DNA from: Streptomyces sp. NRRL S-1022
GTDB lineage: Bacteria > Actinomycetota > Actinomycetes > Streptomycetales > Streptomycetaceae
Length of the DNA: 64,000 bases
Direction: 5' to 3'
NCBI RefSeq assembly: GCF_000720135.1
Contig: NZ_JOIU01000023.1
Location: 62,001-126,000, forward strand
The notes under the pieces: generated by a model
What the model was told of the DNA's origin: nothing
The model's database searches: none
The model's input: only the letters and a program-made list of their open reading frames with translations
Part shown: positions 5,793-59,517 of the stretch, piece after piece
How the letters are laid out: each line of letters begins with the position of its first letter
Numbering within the stretch: position 1 is the stretch's first letter
Translations under genes and position numbers: made by a program

Positions 5793-6871
5793 CTCTCGCC
5801 GCCGCAACAAACGAACACCTCGCGAGCATCAGCAACACGCTGATCTACTCGTCGATGGCCGTCTACACCCTGGCCTTCTTCGCCTACATCGCCGAGTGGC
5901 TGTTCGGCAGCCGCAGCAAGGTGGCCCGTACGGCCGCCGCGCTCACCGCCGGCCGCGAGCGCACGGCGGGCGCCCCCGCCGTCGCCGTGCGGCAGGCCGG
6001 CGGCACCGCCGTGCTGGAGCGGCCCAAGGTCGTCGTCCGCTCGGCGTCCGGCGCCCGGGACGTGCCCGACGGGCCCGGCGCGCACGGCGGCGACGAGCAG
6101 GGCGACCTGTACGGCCGGATCGCCATCTCCCTCACCGTGCTCGCGTTCCTCGTGGAGCTGGGCGGTGTCGTGACCCGCGCGGCCTCCGTGGAGCGGGCGC
6201 CGTGGGGCAACATGTACGAGTTCAACATCACCTTCTCCACGGTCGCCGTCGGTGTGTACCTCGGGCTGCTGGCCCTGAAGAAGAACGTGCGCTGGCTCGG
6301 CCTGTTCCTCGTCACGACCGTCCTGCTGGACCTGGGCCTGGCGGTCACCGTCCTGTACACGGCCAGCGACCAGCTGGTGCCGGCCCTGCACTCGTACTGG
6401 CTGTACATCCACGTCTCCACCGCGATCTTCTGCGGCGCGGTGTTCTACGTCGGCGCGGTCGCCACGATCCTGTACCTGTTCAAGGACTCGTACGAGACCA
6501 AGCTGGAGGCCGGGGGCACGCCCGGCAGGTTCGCGTCCTCCGTGCTGGAGCGGCTGCCCGCCTCCGCCTCCCTGGACAAGTTCGCCTACCGCGTCAACGC
6601 GGCCGTCTTTCCGCTGTGGACGTTCACGATCATCGCGGGCGCGATCTGGGCGGGCGACGCCTGGGGCCGGTACTGGAACTGGGACCCGAAGGAGACCTGG
6701 TCCTTCATCACCTGGATCGCCTACGCCTGCTACCTGCACGCCCGCGCCACCGCCGGCTGGAAGGGCCGCAAGGCCGCCTACCTGGCGATGATCGCCTTCG
6801 GCTGCTGGCTCTTCAACTACTACGGCGTGAACATCTTCGTGAGCGGCAAGCACTCCTACGCGGGCGTGTAA
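5789..6871 (+). CDS. ccsA: Cytochrome c biogenesis protein CcsA (ResC)
   Basis: 360 residues with multiple membrane helices. The tryptophan-rich haem-handling WWD region is visible near residues 290-310 (WGRYWNWDPKETWSF). The N-terminal quarter contains a hydrophilic Ala/Arg/Gly-rich insert of roughly 70 residues between the first and second helices. It is the last gene of the ccs operon. Its partner ResB lies directly upstream with a 4-bp overlap. Confidence 0.93.
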   Translation: MTLAAATNEHLASISNTLIYSSMAVYTLAFFAYIAEWLFGSRSKVARTAAALTAGRERTAGAPAVAVRQAGGTAVLERPKVVVRSASGARDVPDGPGAHGGDEQGDLYGRIAISLTVLAFLVELGGVVTRAASVERAPWGNMYEFNITFSTVAVGVYLGLLALKKNVRWLGLFLVTTVLLDLGLAVTVLYTASDQLVPALHSYWLYIHVSTAIFCGAVFYVGAVATILYLFKDSYETKLEAGGTPGRFASSVLERLPASASLDKFAYRVNAAVFPLWTFTIIAGAIWAGDAWGRYWNWDPKETWSFITWIAYACYLHARATAGWKGRKAAYLAMIAFGCWLFNYYGVNIFVSGKHSYAGV

Positions 6872-6901
6872 CCGCCGCGTGCGGGTGCCCCGGGACGGGA
6901 G

Positions 6902-6907
6902 CAGGCT
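6902..6907 (+). promoter_or_regulatory. Candidate -10 element of a leaderless transcript (SRPBCC gene)
   Basis: CAGGCT (close to the frequent Streptomyces -10 TAGGCT) ends 6 bases before the ATG at 6914, so transcription would begin at or next to the start codon. No clear -35 is visible. Confidence 0.35.
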
Positions 6908-6913
6908 GGTGTC

Positions 6914-7318
6914 ATGAGCGGTTCCATCGCACAGGGCACCAGCCAGACGCACGGGAACATGCACATCCTGCACTTCGTGGTGCAGCTCCCGCGGCCGATG
7001 GAGGACGTCTGGGCCGCGGTGGCCACGGCCGAGGGGCTGGCGTCCTGGTTCACCGCCGCCGAGGTGCTCGAACACCGCCTCGGCGGCGCGGTCACGCTGC
7101 GCGACCTGGGCAGCGGGCAGGTGACCGCCTGGGACGTGGACCGGGTCGCGGAGTACACCCTGGAGAGCGCCGGCCGGCTCCGGTTCCACCTGGAGCGCGA
7201 AGGGGAGGACGCCAGCGTGCTCCGCTTCACGCACGAGTTCCAGGGCGAGGAGGAGTCCGAGCAGCGCTGGCGCGACCGGCTCGAACGCCTGATCGGGACA
7301 CTCGGCCCGAACGCCTAG
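6914..7318 (+). CDS. SRPBCC / START-like ligand-binding family protein
   Basis: 134 residues with the helix-grip fold pattern: an N-terminal strand (MHILHFVVQLP), the helix PMEDVWAAVATAEGLASWF, then alternating strands and a long C-terminal helix. This resembles the AHSA1/polyketide-cyclase superfamily, which binds small hydrophobic ligands. No specific substrate can be assigned. Its TAG stop lies in a CTAG tetramer whose other strand is the stop of the converging condensation gene, so the two genes overlap by 4 bp. Confidence 0.75.
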   Translation: MSGSIAQGTSQTHGNMHILHFVVQLPRPMEDVWAAVATAEGLASWFTAAEVLEHRLGGAVTLRDLGSGQVTAWDVDRVAEYTLESAGRLRFHLEREGEDASVLRFTHEFQGEEESEQRWRDRLERLIGTLGPNA

Positions 7319-52644: not shown

Positions 52645-55416
52645 TCACAGCCCCCGCGCCGCGTAGGCCCGGACGTCCGCGTCCGAGTCGGCCGTGGCCG
52701 CGGCGAGGGCCGCGCGGGCCTCCGCCGAGGTCCGGTGCCCGCTCAGGGCCAGGACCGCCGACTTACGGACGTCGGCGTTCGGATCGGCGAGGGCCTTGGC
52801 GAGGGCGGGGACGGCCGGGCCGGCGGGCGCGGCCGACAACGCGGTCGCGGCACCGGACCGTACCTGCCAGGCCGGATCCGACAGGGCGGCCACGGCCCGC
52901 GCGGCCAGCGGCGGCGGGCAGCCGGTGGCGGCCAGCGCGCCGAGCGCGGCGCCCCGCACCAGTGGGTCGCCGTCCTCGGTGAGCCGGTCCAGGGCGGCGG
53001 TGAGCAGGTCCCGGTCGGCCGGGGCGAGGGCGGCCGAGCCGATAGTGGCCAGGGCCTTCGCCACGGTGACCCGGACCTCCCGGGAGGGATCGTCCGCCGC
53101 GCCCGCCAGGGGCCGGACCGCGTCCACCGAGACGAGCGCCCGCACGGCCTCGGTCCGGACGGCGATGTCGGGGTCGTCCAGTGCCGCCGCGAACACCGCC
53201 GCCTCGCCGAGCCGCAGGGCCCGCAGCACATCGAGGGCAGCGGCCCGGACCACGGGGTCGGCCTGGGCGAGCGCACCGGTGAGAGCGGCCCCCAGAGCCG
53301 GCTCGGGCGGCAGCGTCTCCACGAGCTCCCGCAACGAGGCCGCGGCGGCCGCGCGGACCTCGGCATCGGGGTCGGCGAGCGCACCGGCCAGGGCCTGGCC
53401 GGTGCCGGGCGGCACGGTCTCCGTGAGCACCGCGACGGCCATACGGCGCACAGCGGGATCCGGGTCGGCCAAGTACGGCTCGACCATCGCGAGTTCGGGC
53501 TCCGCCTCGGCCAGGCCCAGCAGCTCCAGCAGCCGGGGAGAGGCGGCGTCCCGCGCGTCCGCCCGGTCCACGGAACCGGCATCGGCGGCACGCGCGGACG
53601 CGGGCCGCACGGCCACCGGCGCCACCTCGCGGGGCCCGGCCGTGGCCACGTGCTCGGGACGGACCTCGCCCAGATGCCGGGAGGGACCGCCGACAGGCGT
53701 GAACTCCTCCACCGGCACCAGATACGGAGCCACGGGACGGGCCGTGAACTCCATCGCACCAGAGGGGGACTTGTGCAGATCGAGATGGTGGAACCAGGAG
53801 ACGTCGTCGCGCCCGGGATGATCGAGACGATCATGGTAGAGGCCCCAGCGGGACTCGGTGCGGGCCAGCGAAGCGCGGGCGGCCATCTCCGCGCAGTCGC
53901 GTATGAAGGTGACCTCGGCACAGCGCATCAGCTCATGCGGGGTGCGGGCACCCATGGAGGCGATGTCGGCGCGCATCCGCTCGAACGCCTCCAGCGCGAG
54001 GGAGAGCCGCGCGCCGGACTTCGGCGGTGCCACGTAGTCGTTCACGAAGCGGCGCAGCTTGTACTCGACCTGGGGCTGCGGCGGGCCGTCCGGGTTGCGC
54101 AGCGGGCGGTAGATCAACTCGTGGGCCTCGCGCACCTGGTCCGCGGGAAGCTCACCGTCGTACGCCCTGTACCGGGCGGCGTCCGCACCCGCGAGGTCGC
54201 CGAAGACGAAGGCGCCGATCATGTAGTTGTGCGGGACGCAGGCGAGGTCGCCGGCGGCGTACAGGCGGGGCACGGTCGTACGCGCGTGGTCGTCGACGCG
54301 GACACCCGAGGCGGAGTGGCCGCCGCACAGGCCGATCTCGGAGATGTGCATCTCGACGTCGTGGGTGCGGTAGTCGTGCCCGCGGCCGGCGTGGAAGGTG
54401 CCGCGGGTGGGCCGCTCGGTGGAGTGCAGGATCGACTCCAGGGCGGAGACCGACTCCTCGGGCAGATGGCTGAGCTTGAGGTACACCGGACCCCGGTCGC
54501 CGGCGACCTCGGCGGCGAACTCGGCCATCATCTGCCCCGACCAGTAGTCGGAGTCGACGAAGCGCTCGCCGTGCCGGTTGACCTGGTAGCCGCCGAACGG
54601 GTTGGCGACGTAGGCGCAGGCCGGACCGTTGTAGTCCTTGATCAACGGGTTGATCTGGAAGCACTCGATACCGGTCAGCTCGGCGCCCGCGTGGTAGGCC
54701 ATGGCGTACCCGTCACCGGCGTTGGTGGGGTTCTCGTAGGTGCCGTAGAGGTAACCGGAGGCGGGCAGGCCGAGCCGGCCACAGGCACCGGTCGCCAGGA
54801 TCACCGCGCCCGCGCGGATGGTGACGAACGCGCCGGTACGGGTGTGGAACCCGACCGCACCCACGGCCCGCCCGCCGGCGGTGAGGACCCGGACCGGCAT
54901 CACCCGGTTCTCGATCCGGATCCGCTCCCGCATCTCGCGCCGCCGCAACTGCCGGTACAGGACCTTTTTGACGTCCTTGCCCTCTGGCATCGGCAGTACG
55001 TACGAGCCGGAGCGATGGACCTGGCGGACCGCGTACTCGCCGTGCTCGTCCTTCTCGAACTTGACCCCGTACGACTCCAGCCGCTGCACCATCGCGAAGC
55101 CGCGCGTGGCGGTCTGGCGGACGGTGGCCTGGTCGACGATGCCGTCGTTGGCGCGGGTGATCTCGGCGACGTAGTCGTCGGGCTCGGCACGGCCGGGGAT
55201 GACCGCGTTGTTGACGCCGTCCATGCCCATGGCGAGCGCGCCGGAGTGCCGGACGTGGGCTTTTTCCAGCAGCAGGACGTTCGCACCGCGCTCGGCGGCG
55301 GTCAGGGCGGCCATGGTGCCGGCGGTGCCGCCGCCGACGACGAGGACATCGCAGGTCAGCTCCTCGGCATCGGTGACGGCGGGAATCTGCAGGGGGGCGG
55401 GCGCGAGGGTGGTCAC
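52645..55416 (-). CDS. AprA/fumarate-reductase-like flavoprotein fused to HEAT repeats
   Basis: 923 residues; GTG start with GAAAGG 8 bases upstream. The FAD domain opens with DVLVVGGGTAGTMAALTAAERG (about 23-44), then LLLEKAHVRHSGALAMGMDGVNN, like the SG(A/C)xAxG block of adenylylsulfate reductase AprA and fumarate reductases. RLYAAGDLACVPHNYMIGA (about 384-402) is the second FAD contact and RTESRWGLYHDR (about 519-530) the helical end. From about residue 625 to 923 there are roughly nine HEAT repeats (LADPDPAVRRMAVAVL-like units). It ends an operon with ferredoxin and ABC-importer genes. Substrate unknown; reductase or oxidase of an imported compound is inferred. Confidence 0.8.
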   Translation of the reverse strand: MTTLAPAPLQIPAVTDAEELTCDVLVVGGGTAGTMAALTAAERGANVLLLEKAHVRHSGALAMGMDGVNNAVIPGRAEPDDYVAEITRANDGIVDQATVRQTATRGFAMVQRLESYGVKFEKDEHGEYAVRQVHRSGSYVLPMPEGKDVKKVLYRQLRRREMRERIRIENRVMPVRVLTAGGRAVGAVGFHTRTGAFVTIRAGAVILATGACGRLGLPASGYLYGTYENPTNAGDGYAMAYHAGAELTGIECFQINPLIKDYNGPACAYVANPFGGYQVNRHGERFVDSDYWSGQMMAEFAAEVAGDRGPVYLKLSHLPEESVSALESILHSTERPTRGTFHAGRGHDYRTHDVEMHISEIGLCGGHSASGVRVDDHARTTVPRLYAAGDLACVPHNYMIGAFVFGDLAGADAARYRAYDGELPADQVREAHELIYRPLRNPDGPPQPQVEYKLRRFVNDYVAPPKSGARLSLALEAFERMRADIASMGARTPHELMRCAEVTFIRDCAEMAARASLARTESRWGLYHDRLDHPGRDDVSWFHHLDLHKSPSGAMEFTARPVAPYLVPVEEFTPVGGPSRHLGEVRPEHVATAGPREVAPVAVRPASARAADAGSVDRADARDAASPRLLELLGLAEAEPELAMVEPYLADPDPAVRRMAVAVLTETVPPGTGQALAGALADPDAEVRAAAAASLRELVETLPPEPALGAALTGALAQADPVVRAAALDVLRALRLGEAAVFAAALDDPDIAVRTEAVRALVSVDAVRPLAGAADDPSREVRVTVAKALATIGSAALAPADRDLLTAALDRLTEDGDPLVRGAALGALAATGCPPPLAARAVAALSDPAWQVRSGAATALSAAPAGPAVPALAKALADPNADVRKSAVLALSGHRTSAEARAALAAATADSDADVRAYAARGL

Positions 55417-55427
55417 CGGGATGCCTT

Positions 55428-56216
55428 TCAGGAGCCGAGCGAGCTGAGGACGGCGCGGCGCAGCGCCACACGGGCCGGATCGTCGAAGGCCGCACGGTCC
55501 CGGGGACGCGGCACCTCGCGTACGGCGGACACCCGGCCCGAACCGAGCAGGGCCACACGGTCACCGAGGAAGAGCGCCTCGTCCACGTCGTGCGTGACAA
55601 ACACGACGGTCGCGCCCGTGCCCCGCAACACCTCCACCAGCAGGTCCTGCATGCCGGACCGGGTCTGCGCGTCGAGGGCGCCGAAAGGCTCGTCCATGAG
55701 GACCGCGCGCGGACTGTCCGCCAAGGCCCGGGCCAACTGGGCCCGCTGGCGCTGCCCACCGGACACCCGGTGCGGCAACTGCCCCGCCTGCTCGCTCAGC
55801 CCGACCCGCGCGAGCCACGACGCGGCGCGGGAACGCCGCTCCACGCGCGGGACGCCCCTGATGGCCAGGGGGAGTTCGACGTTTCCGCGCAGGCTGCGCC
55901 AGGGCAGCAGCGCGTCCTCCTGGAAGACGAGCGCGCGGTCGGCCGACGGCCCGGTCAGCGGGCTGCCGTCCGCCTCGGCCGTGCCGCCCAGCGGCGCCAG
56001 CAGCCCGGCGAGCGTCCGCAACAGCGTGGACTTGCCGCAGCCGGAGGGGCCGACGACGGTGAGGATCTCGCCGGGGGCGACGTCCAGGTCGACGCCTGAC
56101 AGGACCGGCGCGTCCGGGCGGCCGAGGACGGCGGAGCGGAAAGCCAGCCGGGTGCCGCGCACGCCTTCCGTCACCGGTGCGGCGGGAGCGGTGGCGGTCT
56201 CAGACGAGGTGCTCAT
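55428..56216 (-). CDS. ABC transporter ATPase, sulfonate/nitrate/taurine class
   Basis: 262 residues from the ATG at 56216, 6 bases after GAGGAGG; the preceding GTG is less well placed. Walker A GPSGCGKST (about 60), Q-loop FQEDALLPWRSL, signature VSGGQRQRAQLARAL (about 149), Walker B AVLMDEPFGALD, and the switch His in VFVTHDVDEAL. The DEPFGALD and LPWRSL forms are typical of SsuB/TauB ATPases. Overlaps the permease gene by 17 bp and precedes the flavoprotein by 11 bp. Confidence 0.92.
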   Translation of the reverse strand: MSTSSETATAPAAPVTEGVRGTRLAFRSAVLGRPDAPVLSGVDLDVAPGEILTVVGPSGCGKSTLLRTLAGLLAPLGGTAEADGSPLTGPSADRALVFQEDALLPWRSLRGNVELPLAIRGVPRVERRSRAASWLARVGLSEQAGQLPHRVSGGQRQRAQLARALADSPRAVLMDEPFGALDAQTRSGMQDLLVEVLRGTGATVVFVTHDVDEALFLGDRVALLGSGRVSAVREVPRPRDRAAFDDPARVALRRAVLSSLGS

Positions 56217-57114
56217 CACGGGCCTCCTCGGTGTCGTTCTGGCCCTGTTGCTCGGACTCGGCCTGCTGCTCGGGCTCGCCGTCGGGGCGGGCTGGGGCGG
56301 CGAGCGCCCGGGGCGCGCGGGTCCGCGCGCCGGGGACGTACGAGGTGCGGGGCAGCCAGCGGGTCAGCCGGCGGCCGAGGAGTTCCACGGCCGTGGAGGT
56401 GATCCAGCCGAGCACGCCGATCGTGACCATGCCGACGAAGACACCGGGGTAGTTCACCACCGTGTAGTCCTGCCAGGTGCGGTAGCCGACCCCGTACTGG
56501 CCGGAGATCATCTCGGCGGAGATCACGCAGATCCACGACACGCCGATGCCCACCGACAGGCCGCCGAAGATGCCGGGCAGGGCTCCCGGCAGCACGACCG
56601 AGCCGAGGATCCGGAGCCGGCCCGCGCCCATCGTGCGCACCGCCTCCTCCCAGACCGGGGTCAGCGCGCGGACCGCGTGCCGAGTGGAGACCAGCACGGG
56701 GAAGAAGGCGGCGGTGCAGGTGATGAAGACGATGCCCTGCTCGTTCGAGGGGAACAGCAGGATCGCGACCGGGACGAGGGCGATCGCCGGGATCGGCCGG
56801 ACGACCTCCAGCACCGGTCCGAGCAGGTCCTCGGCCAGGCGGGAGCGGGCCACGAGCACGCCGGTCGCCACACCGAGGACGGCCGCCAGCGCGAAGCCGG
56901 TCAGGATGCGGGTGAGGCTGTCGGTGAGGTCGGTCCAGTAGTCGTCGCCGGAGAGCCGGTCGGCGAAGGCGCGGGCCACGTCGGTGACCGTCGGGAACTG
57001 CGAGAACCGCAGCCACAGGTCGACGTTCAGGCTGGTCAGCAACTGCCACACGCCGAGGGCGGCGGCCAGGGACACCGCCCGCAGCGCATACCGGGCCAGG
57101 GGCCGCCGGGTCAT
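56200..57114 (-). CDS. ABC transporter permease, sulfonate/nitrate/taurine class
   Basis: 304 residues from the ATG at 57114, whose ATGA overlaps the stop of the binding-protein gene. About six membrane helices; the EAA-type coupling loop EEAVRTMGAGRLRILGSVVLPGALPGIFGGL (about 166-196) is well conserved. The last 40 residues are a hydrophilic Pro/Glu/Gln-rich tail (EPEQQAESEQQGQNDTEE), unusual for the family. Confidence 0.9.
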   Translation of the reverse strand: MTRRPLARYALRAVSLAAALGVWQLLTSLNVDLWLRFSQFPTVTDVARAFADRLSGDDYWTDLTDSLTRILTGFALAAVLGVATGVLVARSRLAEDLLGPVLEVVRPIPAIALVPVAILLFPSNEQGIVFITCTAAFFPVLVSTRHAVRALTPVWEEAVRTMGAGRLRILGSVVLPGALPGIFGGLSVGIGVSWICVISAEMISGQYGVGYRTWQDYTVVNYPGVFVGMVTIGVLGWITSTAVELLGRRLTRWLPRTSYVPGARTRAPRALAAPARPDGEPEQQAESEQQGQNDTEEARDEHLV

Positions 57115-58454
57115 GAGGCCCGCTCCAGAGCCTCGCGGTACGACACCGTGCGCGCGCCGCCGTGCGCGGAGAGGTAGTCCTTCGCGGTGGCCGGGGTGAC
57201 GAAGGGCAGCAGCCGGTCGCCGTCGGCCACCCAGACCGCCTTGTCGGCGAACCAGAGGGTGCCGGTGGTGGAGTCGGGCACGTAGGCGGCGCGGATGCCG
57301 TCCTGGTGTGCGGCCAGGTAGGCCAGCAGTTGCTCCGGGGACTTGTAGGAGAGCGTCTTCTCGCTGCCCCTGGGCCACACCTCGCTCGCGGCCGGCGGGG
57401 GCGACGTGGCGAGCCGCTTGGCGTACGACGTGCCGAGGGCCTTCTTCACGTACTGGTCGTCGACGAAGGAGTCCACGTCGATGTCGCCGGTCAGCTTGGC
57501 GGACTTCAGCACGGACACGTCCTGCTTCAGGGCGGAGACGAGCCGCGGGGCGAGCGCCGGGCTGAACGTGGCGATGCCGTGGGCGCCGTTGTACAGGTAC
57601 ACGACCTCGGCGGGCAGCCCGGTGGCCTCGGCGACCTTCTCGGCCGCGGTGACGGGGTGGCCGTTGAGGTAGTCCGTCGCCTGGGCCTGCGCCTTGAGGA
57701 AGGCTTCCAGGACGGCCGGGTGCTGCCGGGCGAAGTCCTCGCGGGCGGTGACGCCGTGGAAGGTGGGCAGGTTCAGCCGAGCTCCGTCGTACAGGGCCTT
57801 GGCCTTGCCCTGGAAGGCGAGCAGGCCCGGCCAGGCGACGAACTGGGACAGCGCGTCCACGCTGCCGGCCGACAGCGCCGAAGCGCCCACGGCGGGCTGC
57901 TGGTTGAGCTTGGAGATTCCCTTGTCCGGGTCGATGCCGGCTCGCTGCAGGGCCCGTACGAGGGTGCCGTCGGCGGCCGAGCCGATGCTCGTGGAGACCT
58001 TCTTGCCCTTCAGGTCCTTCAGCGATGTGAGGCTGGAGTCGGCTGCGGTGACGATGGTGTTGAGGCCGCCGCGCAGGTTGTAGCCGGTGGCGGAGACCAG
58101 GTGGGTCGGCCGGTCGAGCTGCTTGCCCCGGGCCGCGTTGAGCAACAGCGGGAAGTCACCCATCGAGCCGATGTCGATCTTCCCGGCGGTCATCTGGGCG
58201 GTGATCGGAGCGCCGGTGGCGTAGTCCTGCCAGTCCACCTTGTAGGTGTGGCCGTCGTGCAGGGAGTTGAGCTGCTTCTCGAAGTATCCGAGGGAGCGCA
58301 GCAGGGTGCCGGCGGTGACGGTGTTGATGGTCTTGGACTGGTAGCCGACGGTGACGGTGACCGTGGAGCCGCTGCCCGCCTCGGCGCTGCCGCCGCAGGC
58401 GGACAGGGGCAGCAGGAGCGCGGTGGCGGACAGGGCGACTGTCGTGCGTCTCAT
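57111..58454 (-). CDS. ABC transporter substrate-binding lipoprotein (NMT1/SsuA-like)
   Basis: 447 residues from the ATG at 58454 (GAGAGG upstream). Signal peptide with lipobox LPLSACGG (Cys about 21). The two-lobed binding fold of the sulfonate/nitrate/thiamine-precursor class is suggested by TVGYQSKTINTVTAGTLLRSLGYFEK, GKIDIGSMGDFPLLLNAARG and LKGKKVSTSIGSAADGTLVRALQRAGI. It is about 110 residues longer than a usual SsuA, with an extra C-terminal segment. It captures the unknown ligand outside the cell for the adjacent permease. Confidence 0.88.
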   Translation of the reverse strand: MRRTTVALSATALLLPLSACGGSAEAGSGSTVTVTVGYQSKTINTVTAGTLLRSLGYFEKQLNSLHDGHTYKVDWQDYATGAPITAQMTAGKIDIGSMGDFPLLLNAARGKQLDRPTHLVSATGYNLRGGLNTIVTAADSSLTSLKDLKGKKVSTSIGSAADGTLVRALQRAGIDPDKGISKLNQQPAVGASALSAGSVDALSQFVAWPGLLAFQGKAKALYDGARLNLPTFHGVTAREDFARQHPAVLEAFLKAQAQATDYLNGHPVTAAEKVAEATGLPAEVVYLYNGAHGIATFSPALAPRLVSALKQDVSVLKSAKLTGDIDVDSFVDDQYVKKALGTSYAKRLATSPPPAASEVWPRGSEKTLSYKSPEQLLAYLAAHQDGIRAAYVPDSTTGTLWFADKAVWVADGDRLLPFVTPATAKDYLSAHGGARTVSYREALERAS

Positions 58455-58468
58455 GATGGGTGTACCTC

Positions 58469-58696
58469 TCACCGCAGCAGGTAGGGCATGTTGACCGTGA
58501 CGGCTCCGGTGGGGCAGCGAGCCGCGCAGGGGCCGCAGTACCAGCACTCGTCGACGTGCATGTACGCCTTGCCGCTGCTCTCGTCGATGGCGAGGGAGTC
58601 CAGCGGGCACATGTCCACGCAGAGGGTGCAGCCGTCGATGCACTTCGACTCGTCGATGGTCACGGGCACGTCGGCCCGCTGGGGCGCCAAGGGCAT
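58469..58696 (-). CDS. Two-[4Fe-4S] ferredoxin resembling AprB
   Basis: 75 residues with two cluster motifs: CIDGCTLCVDMCP (C-x3-C-x2-C-x3-CP, about 20-32) and CWYCGPCAARCP (about 52-63). The VDECWYCGPC segment resembles the second cluster region of AprB, the electron-transfer subunit of adenylylsulfate reductase. It would move electrons to or from the flavoprotein encoded at the end of the same operon. It lies 32 bp after the GntR gene and 14 bp before the binding-protein gene. Confidence 0.88.
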   Translation of the reverse strand: MPLAPQRADVPVTIDESKCIDGCTLCVDMCPLDSLAIDESSGKAYMHVDECWYCGPCAARCPTGAVTVNMPYLLR

Positions 58697-58728
58697 GGCT
58701 GTCTCCAGGGAATGTGCAGGCGGGGCGG

Positions 58729-59517
58729 TTACGACCGGTGCAGCAGGCCGCTCATCGTGATGCGGTCGCCGCGGAAGCGGATGAACTCCAGGTCGACGGG
58801 TCGGCCGTCGGCGAGGTGCGTGAGGCGCTCCAGCATGAGTACGGCGGCGCCGCGCGGGGCCTGGAGCACGGCTGCGGAGTGGGCGTCCGCGTTCACCGCC
58901 TCCAGGGTGATCTCGGCGTGGCCGAGAGGCTGGCCGGTGATGGCTTCCAGGAGGCGGAAGACATCGGTGTTCTCCAGGTCGGCGCCGAGCAGGGCGGTGC
59001 CGATGTCGAGCGGGATGTAGGTGAGGTCGAGGGAGAGCGGGAGGCCGTTCAGGCGGCGCAGGCGTTCGATGTACAGGACGTCGGCGCCGGCCGGGACGCC
59101 CAGGCGTTCGGCCACGGGGACGGGAGCGGGGGCGGGGCCCATGGTGCGGACCTCGTTGGTGACGCGGCCGTGTTCGCGGAGGGTTTCCGCGAGGCCCATC
59201 AGACGGTCGAGCCCGTGCGGGTATTTCCGGGCGACGACGACGGTGCCGACTCCGGGCAGCCGGTCCACCAGGCCCTCGGCCCGGAGCAGGTCCAGGGCTT
59301 GGCGGACGGTGTTGCGGGAGGCGCGGTAGTCGGTGGCGAGGGTGGACTCGTGGGGGAGCGTGCCGTCTTGGAAGGCACCGGTGAGGATCTGGCGGCGCAG
59401 CAGGTCGGCGAGCTGCCGGGCCCGGTCCGCACGCAGCCGGTGCCGTGCGCGGTGGGCGGCGACGGTGCTCGCGGCGCCCTGCCCGGCATGGTCTCGGGGG
59501 CGGTCGGTGGGTGGCAT
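58729..59517 (-). CDS. GntR family (HutC/FarR-type) transcriptional regulator
   Basis: 262 residues from the ATG at 59517. The N-terminal winged helix (about 30-95) contains GTLPHESTLATDYRASRNTVRQALDLLRAEGLV, the GntR recognition region, followed by GVGTVVV. The C-terminal UTRA ligand domain (about 110-255) identifies the HutC subfamily, which usually responds to a substrate of the controlled pathway. It is the first gene of the ferredoxin-ABC-flavoprotein operon and probably senses the imported compound. Confidence 0.9.
   Translation of the reverse strand: MPPTDRPRDHAGQGAASTVAAHRARHRLRADRARQLADLLRRQILTGAFQDGTLPHESTLATDYRASRNTVRQALDLLRAEGLVDRLPGVGTVVVARKYPHGLDRLMGLAETLREHGRVTNEVRTMGPAPAPVPVAERLGVPAGADVLYIERLRRLNGLPLSLDLTYIPLDIGTALLGADLENTDVFRLLEAITGQPLGHAEITLEAVNADAHSAAVLQAPRGAAVLMLERLTHLADGRPVDLEFIRFRGDRITMSGLLHRS

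Follow-up and report, generated by a model that had tools for sequence, protein, structure and literature searches.

A Streptomyces operon joining a sulfonate-class importer to an APS-reductase-related flavoprotein and ferredoxin: a candidate sulfur-scavenging unit

Introduction

Which compound is taken up, and what is done to it, by an operon that encodes a sulfonate-class importer together with a ferredoxin and a flavoprotein related to APS reductase (APSR)? The question is raised by a locus of Streptomyces sp. NRRL S-1022 (8.9-Mb genome), located in the 64,000-nucleotide stretch of DNA analyzed here, which we call the window. An earlier note, made from the sequence alone, had read this locus as a single uptake-plus-redox unit with no assigned pathway. 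According to PMC4267179, organic forms, chiefly sulfate esters and sulfonates, make up more than 95% of the sulfur in soil.

Results

Anatomy of the operon

The operon spans positions 52645 to 59517 of the window and consists of six minus-strand open reading frames (ORFs), listed here in the order of transcription:

58729..59517, minus strand: GntR/UTRA transcription regulator, first gene, start uncertain (PF00392 and PF07702; matched in 76 of the 80 genome loci described below)
58469..58696, minus strand: 75-aa ferredoxin with two 4Fe-4S motifs, the second C-W-x-C as in AprB (Fer4_7; aprB model 36 bits, below cut-off)
57111..58454, minus strand: 447-aa lipoprotein-type substrate-binding protein with an SsuA/TauA fold and a NosL-like C-terminal domain (Pfam NMT1; lipobox by eye)
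56200..57114, minus strand: ABC importer permease of the SsuC/TauC class (PF00528, BPD_transp_1; SsuC 113 bits and TauC 109 bits, both below the curated cut-offs)
55428..56216, minus strand: ABC importer ATPase of the TauB/SsuB class (PF00005, ABC_tran; TauB-type model 215 bits, cut-off 357)
52645..55416, minus strand: 923-aa FAD flavoprotein of the fumarate reductase superfamily, APSR-related, with C-terminal HEAT repeats (PRK13800; FAD_binding_2, Succ_DH_flav_C, HEAT_2)

The ORFs and measured distances agree with the earlier description of a six-gene minus-strand unit with overlaps or gaps of at most 32 bp: there are gaps of 32 bp (GntR to ferredoxin), 14 bp (ferredoxin to binding protein) and 11 bp (ATPase to flavoprotein), and overlaps of 4 bp (binding protein and permease) and 17 bp (permease and ATPase). 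For the ATPase, the ATG at 56216 is a more likely start than 56219. A convergent gene, labeled recQ by eye, lies 28 bp from the operon end; upstream of the GntR gene, at a distance of 133 bp, is an M48 peptidase gene. A promoter and terminator scan found none, and none was expected. In a profile search, the GntR protein was nearest to the PhnF and HutC models, below the cut-offs of both.

Conservation and distribution

We examined 80 species-representative genome loci, all actinomycetal by title; they are the best 80 of 580 confirmed matches and therefore biased towards close relatives. In these, the flavoprotein and ATPase genes were matched in 80/80 loci, those of the permease, binding protein, and ferredoxin in 78/80, and that of GntR in 76/80, whereas the window's flanking genes were matched in only 25 (recQ, labeled by eye) and 18 (M48), so linkage within the operon exceeds chance. 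Most genes are missing from L062 and L068, both of which start close to the end of a contig. GntR is absent from L072 and L086, and the ferredoxin match of L086 lies 5 kb upstream. Among the genome-collection loci listed, that of Streptomyces capoamus was closest (95% in the best flavoprotein segment). Across the phylum, 8 of 296 sampled genomes exceeded the PRK13800 cut-off, as did 104 of 295 from the genus; none of the 14 control genomes did.

The family also extends beyond actinomycetes. At 1e-20, 55 plasmid records matched, from Paraburkholderia, rhizobia, Acinetobacter, Methylobacterium, Acidithiobacillus, cyanobacteria, and others, including one from Ilyobacter that is annotated as APS reductase; family relatives among the matches listed came from Pseudomonas, Burkholderia, Variovorax, rhizobia, and cyanobacteria. 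In the 22 plasmid loci examined further (leaving out the outgroup L109 and the actinomycetal L099), ferredoxin and HEAT were matched in all 22, with HEAT as a separate gene in all 20 that are annotated, and a family-type binding protein (at least 44%) was present in all but L093, L094, and L111 (19/22). Their regulators included a GntR match in 7 loci and a rhizobial Crp type in 11 (L120 at only 24%), and a LysR-type regulator is annotated in L100, L102, and L120. Since the regulators differ between loci, the constant core is the enzyme plus the transporter. FNR-type oxygen sensing by the Crp/Fnr neighbors was rejected, as seven of these proteins (L097, L098, L105, L106, L108, L120, and L121) have no N-terminal cysteine cluster by eye. 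The neighborhood survey, covering 80 actinomycetal and 22 plasmid loci, found linkage conserved across phyla, and the reading of a single uptake-plus-redox unit is upheld.

The flavoprotein forms a clade of its own

The flavoprotein is a fusion of a flavoprotein part at about residues 1 to 570, with FAD_binding_2 and Succ_DH_flav_C extending to about residue 567, and HEAT repeats at about residues 648 to 923 (Pfam), where HEAT_2 matches four stretches. It exceeds the curated cut-offs of both NCBIfam PRK13800 (1650 bits, cut-off 1196, covering positions 1 to 895 of the 898 in the profile) and PRK08275. Both models carry the name fumarate reductase/succinate dehydrogenase flavoprotein subunit, an annotation for which our 24-row tree gives no support. 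In this tree, the flavoprotein fell into its own clade (98/99) outside SDH/FRD/NadB (separate-clade supports 98/99 and 99/98); a sequence labeled CH34_AsfA sat on a very long branch, and the deep order was unsettled. On the basis of this tree we rejected the named identity, fumarate reductase or SDH. We found no characterized member of the clade, and a position within a characterized non-AprA family of known substrate was not seen.

The best-scoring solved structures were APS/PAPS-type reductases, with 187 bits for 8a8o_A and 101 for AfAPSR, ahead of SdhA at 76. In fold matches, FrdA and SdhA tied with PAPS reductase, giving no separation from fumarate reductase. The flavoprotein remained far below the AprA models PRK06854 (261 bits, cut-off 557) and aprA (123 bits, cut-off 642).

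The APS/PAPS-binding pocket is lost in the family alignment

We aligned 103 family members, including that of the window, with AfAPSR and MtPAPSR, and compared the residues that we take to be the substrate and catalytic residues of AfAPSR (N74, W234, F261, R265, R317, and H398). In 103/103 members, W234 is replaced by Y, F261 by Q, and R265 by L, and R317 falls in an alignment gap. Asn is kept at N74 in 102/103 (one gap) and His at H398 in 103/103. Because three of the four substrate residues are replaced and the other lies in a gap, the alignment shows that the (P)APS pocket has not been retained, even though the family still has the core of the superfamily and a few catalytic-region residues. 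Near-invariant motifs particular to the family include GRLGLP-SGYL-GTYENP, Q-N-PL-KDYNGPACAYV, and DYWSG-M, as well as VH--G-YVLPMP, SEIG-C-GHSASG, and VPHNYM; such motifs lie around residues 213-275, 290-296, 355-371, and 394-403. The accessible text of PMC10322725 further names Q145 for AfAPSR, and W206 and Y207 for MtPAPSR, which is said there to retain the proposed catalytic residues; Q145 is replaced by V in 102/103 family members, with one gap.

The AprBA-type reaction is accordingly not supported, since the (P)APS-binding residues are lost in the aligned members and neither Sat nor CysC belongs to the core.

The ferredoxin and its electron supply

Wherever the ferredoxin was found, a Trp directly follows the first Cys of its second motif (78/78 actinomycetal and 22/22 plasmid loci). 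The three APSR partners at L109, L113, and L114 have Trp at the same position, and the ferredoxin of Cupriavidus metallidurans CH34 has Gln there. By our reading of the motif, this Trp would correspond to Trp42 of MtPAPSR, proposed in the available part of PMC10322725 as an aid to electron transfer. These features, with the structure scores, agree with the earlier claim of an AprA/AprB-related flavin/Fe-S pair. In Methylobacterium radiotolerans the unit is followed by genes for FdxA and ferredoxin-NADP reductase, which fits electron delivery to the flavoprotein.

The importer and neighboring sulfur genes

The substrate-binding protein ranked sulfonate binders first among its fold matches, and fell below the cut-offs of the curated SsuA/TauA models, scoring 139 against TIGR01728 (cut-off 163.5) and 80 against TIGR01729 (cut-off 304). 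Pfam, the model scores, and this fold agree with the sulfonate-class importer read at the outset.

Sulfur genes accompany some of the related units. Mrp, YeiH, and TauE/SafE genes come after the unit in the cyanobacterial L102 and L120, as do Mrp, TauE/SafE, and a putative sulfate exporter matching YeiH in L100; TauE/SafE lies upstream in L101. Sulfate and sulfonate ABC genes and TauD lie near the Sinorhizobium units L108 and L122, and L103 has genes for an LLM oxidoreductase, a thiol dioxygenase, and a rhodanese. In many other plasmid loci (for example, L095, L106, L107, and L121), the stretch inspected contained no sulfur gene outside the unit itself. In single-query searches of the 80 actinomycetal loci, YeiH was found in one, and TauE, CysD, and CysN in none.

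Among related APSR loci, L113, from another member of the phylum, encodes an APS reductase alpha subunit (PRK06854, 812 bits) with its ferredoxin, accompanied by a sulfite-reductase-like protein (below the cut-off), ATP sulfurylase, and an SsuABC-like importer. This actinomycetal pair weakens the earlier expectation that AprBA would not be found beside an importer. The Ilyobacter copy is surrounded by CysC, CysD, and a GTP-binding protein, and L112 has CysD and a CysN-CysC fusion with a decayed member of the present family nearby. Arrangements with an importer next to an APSR pair thus occur in assimilatory sulfur reduction, where an ATP-activating enzyme accompanies them. The absence of this enzyme from the present unit is the main reason for thinking that its substrate needs no activation.

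The asf precedent

As described in PMC4267179, asfRABC of Pseudomonas putida S-313 encodes a LysR regulator and a reductase/ferredoxin pair along with an ABC transporter and a binding protein; insertions in asfA abolish the use of aromatic but not aliphatic sulfonates. PMC2864759 assigns AsfA/AsfB of CH34 to Rmet_4334/5. The CH34 megaplasmid record carries no gene table. Interpolating from the six TauD tags in that paper to the six TauD places in the record predicts a position of about 923 kb for this pair; the single match to a ferredoxin query lies at 928 kb. It adjoins a 549-aa FAD flavoprotein, and SsuBC-like genes are found nearby. This flavoprotein is probably the CH34 AsfA. It aligns with the window flavoprotein at 31% over 240 aa (72 bits), scores 56 bits against PRK08275 (cut-off 587), and has that flavoprotein as its best, if weak, match in the window's genome (42 bits, 30% identity). 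If correctly identified, the CH34 AsfA would on this evidence be only a distant relative of the family.

No match listed in the protein-database searches bore the name AsfA, and many entries are unnamed. Among the papers listed in the literature searched we found no published assignment of the family, and of those read only the asf papers are relevant to it; the original asf papers (Vermeij 1999; Schmalenberger 2007, 2009) lie outside its coverage and may contain one. The accessible portions of PMC5218467 and PMC8557817 do not name the family, those of PMC9694294, PMC3506598, and PMC4070957 use or cite asfA as a marker and give no sequence, and that of PMC8305402 describes a nifA-dependent alkanesulfonate operon in Paraburkholderia phymatum, for which no match to the family was established. 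The statement that no pathway has been assigned is tempered by asfRABC, a cluster built of similar components and with a known mutant phenotype.

Discussion

Proposed function and its alternatives

We consider the chances about even that the operon is a sulfur-scavenging unit, in which sulfonate-type import is followed by flavin/Fe-S cleavage to sulfite. A putatively membrane-anchored binding protein of the sulfonate-binding kind and the ABC importer would take up an organosulfur oxyanion, sulfonate-type and perhaps aromatic. Inside the cell, the flavoprotein and its dedicated two-cluster ferredoxin would form an AprA/AprB-like pair, to which a cellular ferredoxin or NADPH supplies electrons that reach FAD by way of the two 4Fe-4S clusters and the conserved Trp. 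The reduced flavin might then cleave the sulfur bond (APS reductase does so through an attack of N5 on the sulfur), and the sulfite released would pass to the normal sulfite reductase. The HEAT domain may be a scaffold for assembly or electron-donor docking, and GntR may sense the ligand.

Two serious rivals concern the role of the pair and the nature of the substrate. It is unlikely, in our view, that the flavoprotein and ferredoxin only pass electrons to a separate oxygenase whose gene lies elsewhere, the role that reviews give to AsfA/AsfB. Some loci do have LLM or Rieske oxygenase genes nearby, and the window's own genome has eight TauD-family matches; however, no oxygenase is among the operon's six genes, the core matched elsewhere consists of these same genes, and the near-invariant motifs of a dedicated FAD protein suggest that it acts catalytically on a substrate. 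We also doubt that the enzyme is a dehydrogenase or reductase of a sulfur-free import, with C-C or C-N chemistry of the kind carried out by fumarate reductase or L-aspartate oxidase. These enzymes share its superfamily, the fold tie includes FrdA and SdhA, GntR is nearest to PhnF and HutC (below their cut-offs), and amidase and GNAT genes lie near L093 and L096, with a HAD gene at L093. Against this, the clade stands apart from SDH/FRD/NadB, the ferredoxin is AprB-like, and sulfonate binders head the fold matches of the binding protein.

A true APS or PAPS reductase, for sulfate assimilation or sulfite oxidation, is highly improbable: these are the flavoprotein's nearest sequence relatives, L109 and L113 carry CysC and CysD, or Sat, and the decayed L112 copy has CysD and CysN-CysC nearby, but substrate residues and model scores led us to reject a true AprBA, the core has no activation enzyme, and CysH/CysD-type genes lie elsewhere in the genome.

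Within the favored sulfur-scavenging reading, we raise more tentatively, and as the less probable outcome, that the family is an O2-independent reductive desulfonase, in which APS-reductase-like flavin chemistry fed by ferredoxin would break the C-S (or X-SO3) bond in organosulfonates that have been imported. SsuD and TauD, the enzymes of general sulfonate scavenging, depend on O2, and the O2-independent lyases Xsc, SuyAB, and IslA serve particular substrates. If the proposal is true, such a desulfonase would operate in aerobic soil bacteria and cyanobacteria alongside the SsuD and TauD routes. Assigning the family would correct a large misannotation, as it is filed as fumarate reductase or succinate dehydrogenase, and might establish a new route by which sulfur becomes available.

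Comparison with known systems

The unit shares with SsuABC/TauABC the classes of its binding protein, permease, and ATPase and the sulfonate-binder fold, but its proteins fall below the curated cut-offs, its binding protein has an extra NosL-like C-terminal domain, and the operon lacks SsuD and TauD. Like asfRABC, it gathers a reductase, a ferredoxin, an ABC importer, and a binding protein in one cluster, and in the probable CH34 copy, too, SsuBC-like genes are found close to an FAD flavoprotein with a two-cluster ferredoxin. The two differ in that asfRABC has a LysR regulator in place of GntR, the CH34 ferredoxin lacks the Trp, and the probable AsfA is a distant cousin. With the flavin-type PAPS reductase MtPAPSR (8a8o) and the dissimilatory APS reductase AprBA (AfAPSR, 2fja), the family has in common an FAD flavoprotein of the fumarate reductase superfamily, a partner with two 4Fe-4S clusters and a conserved Trp, and Asn and His at N74 and H398 of AfAPSR. 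Unlike them, it forms a separate clade without the (P)APS-binding residues, has a HEAT domain or HEAT partner, and is encoded with a sulfonate-type importer and no Sat or CysC. The unit thus resembles an APS-reductase pair in layout and cofactors but, judged by its substrate residues, is not a member of that family.

Binding protein and regulator

The binding protein of the six-gene unit carries a C-terminal NosL-like domain (window 57114-57440, minus strand), which is also present on the corresponding proteins of loci L092, L096, L100 and L105. In Leptolyngbya and Methylocystis, this domain scored above the Pfam cut-off, and we know of no role for it in such binding proteins. A separate gene accompanies the unit on cyanobacterial plasmids:

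L102, 5562-7577: LysR-type regulator gene adjoining the unit, with a similar gene in L100 and L120

The C-terminal domain of the L102 regulator shares 32% identity over 297 amino acids with the adjoining binding protein, a resemblance suggesting that the regulator may be a cytoplasmic sensor of whatever ligand that protein binds.

Genomic neighborhoods and known systems

On a Tsukamurella plasmid, the unit is adjoined by nucleotidyltransferase, ThiF-like, MPN and SAVED-domain genes (L099, 13275-17561), which from annotation alone look like a CBASS defense set. In Acidithiobacillus caldus (L094, 10102-14035), genes for FdxA and for a 1153-amino-acid glutamate-synthase-like FAD protein, a possible electron donor, come after the unit.

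In L112, the flavoprotein-HEAT gene persists as a decayed copy (approximately 5800-7000) that lacks a match to residues 208 to 660 and lies near CysD and a CysN-CysC fusion. A 1.8-Mb genome of the same phylum as the window's host contains a compact assimilatory sulfate reduction cluster:

L113, 3830-12004: APS reductase alpha and beta, ATP sulfurylase, a sulfite-reductase-like protein and an SsuABC-like importer

Finally, positions 6882-8863 of L129, from the Cupriavidus metallidurans CH34 megaplasmid, probably correspond to the arylsulfonate desulfonation genes asfAB, as placed by interpolation; the CH34 record bears no gene table.
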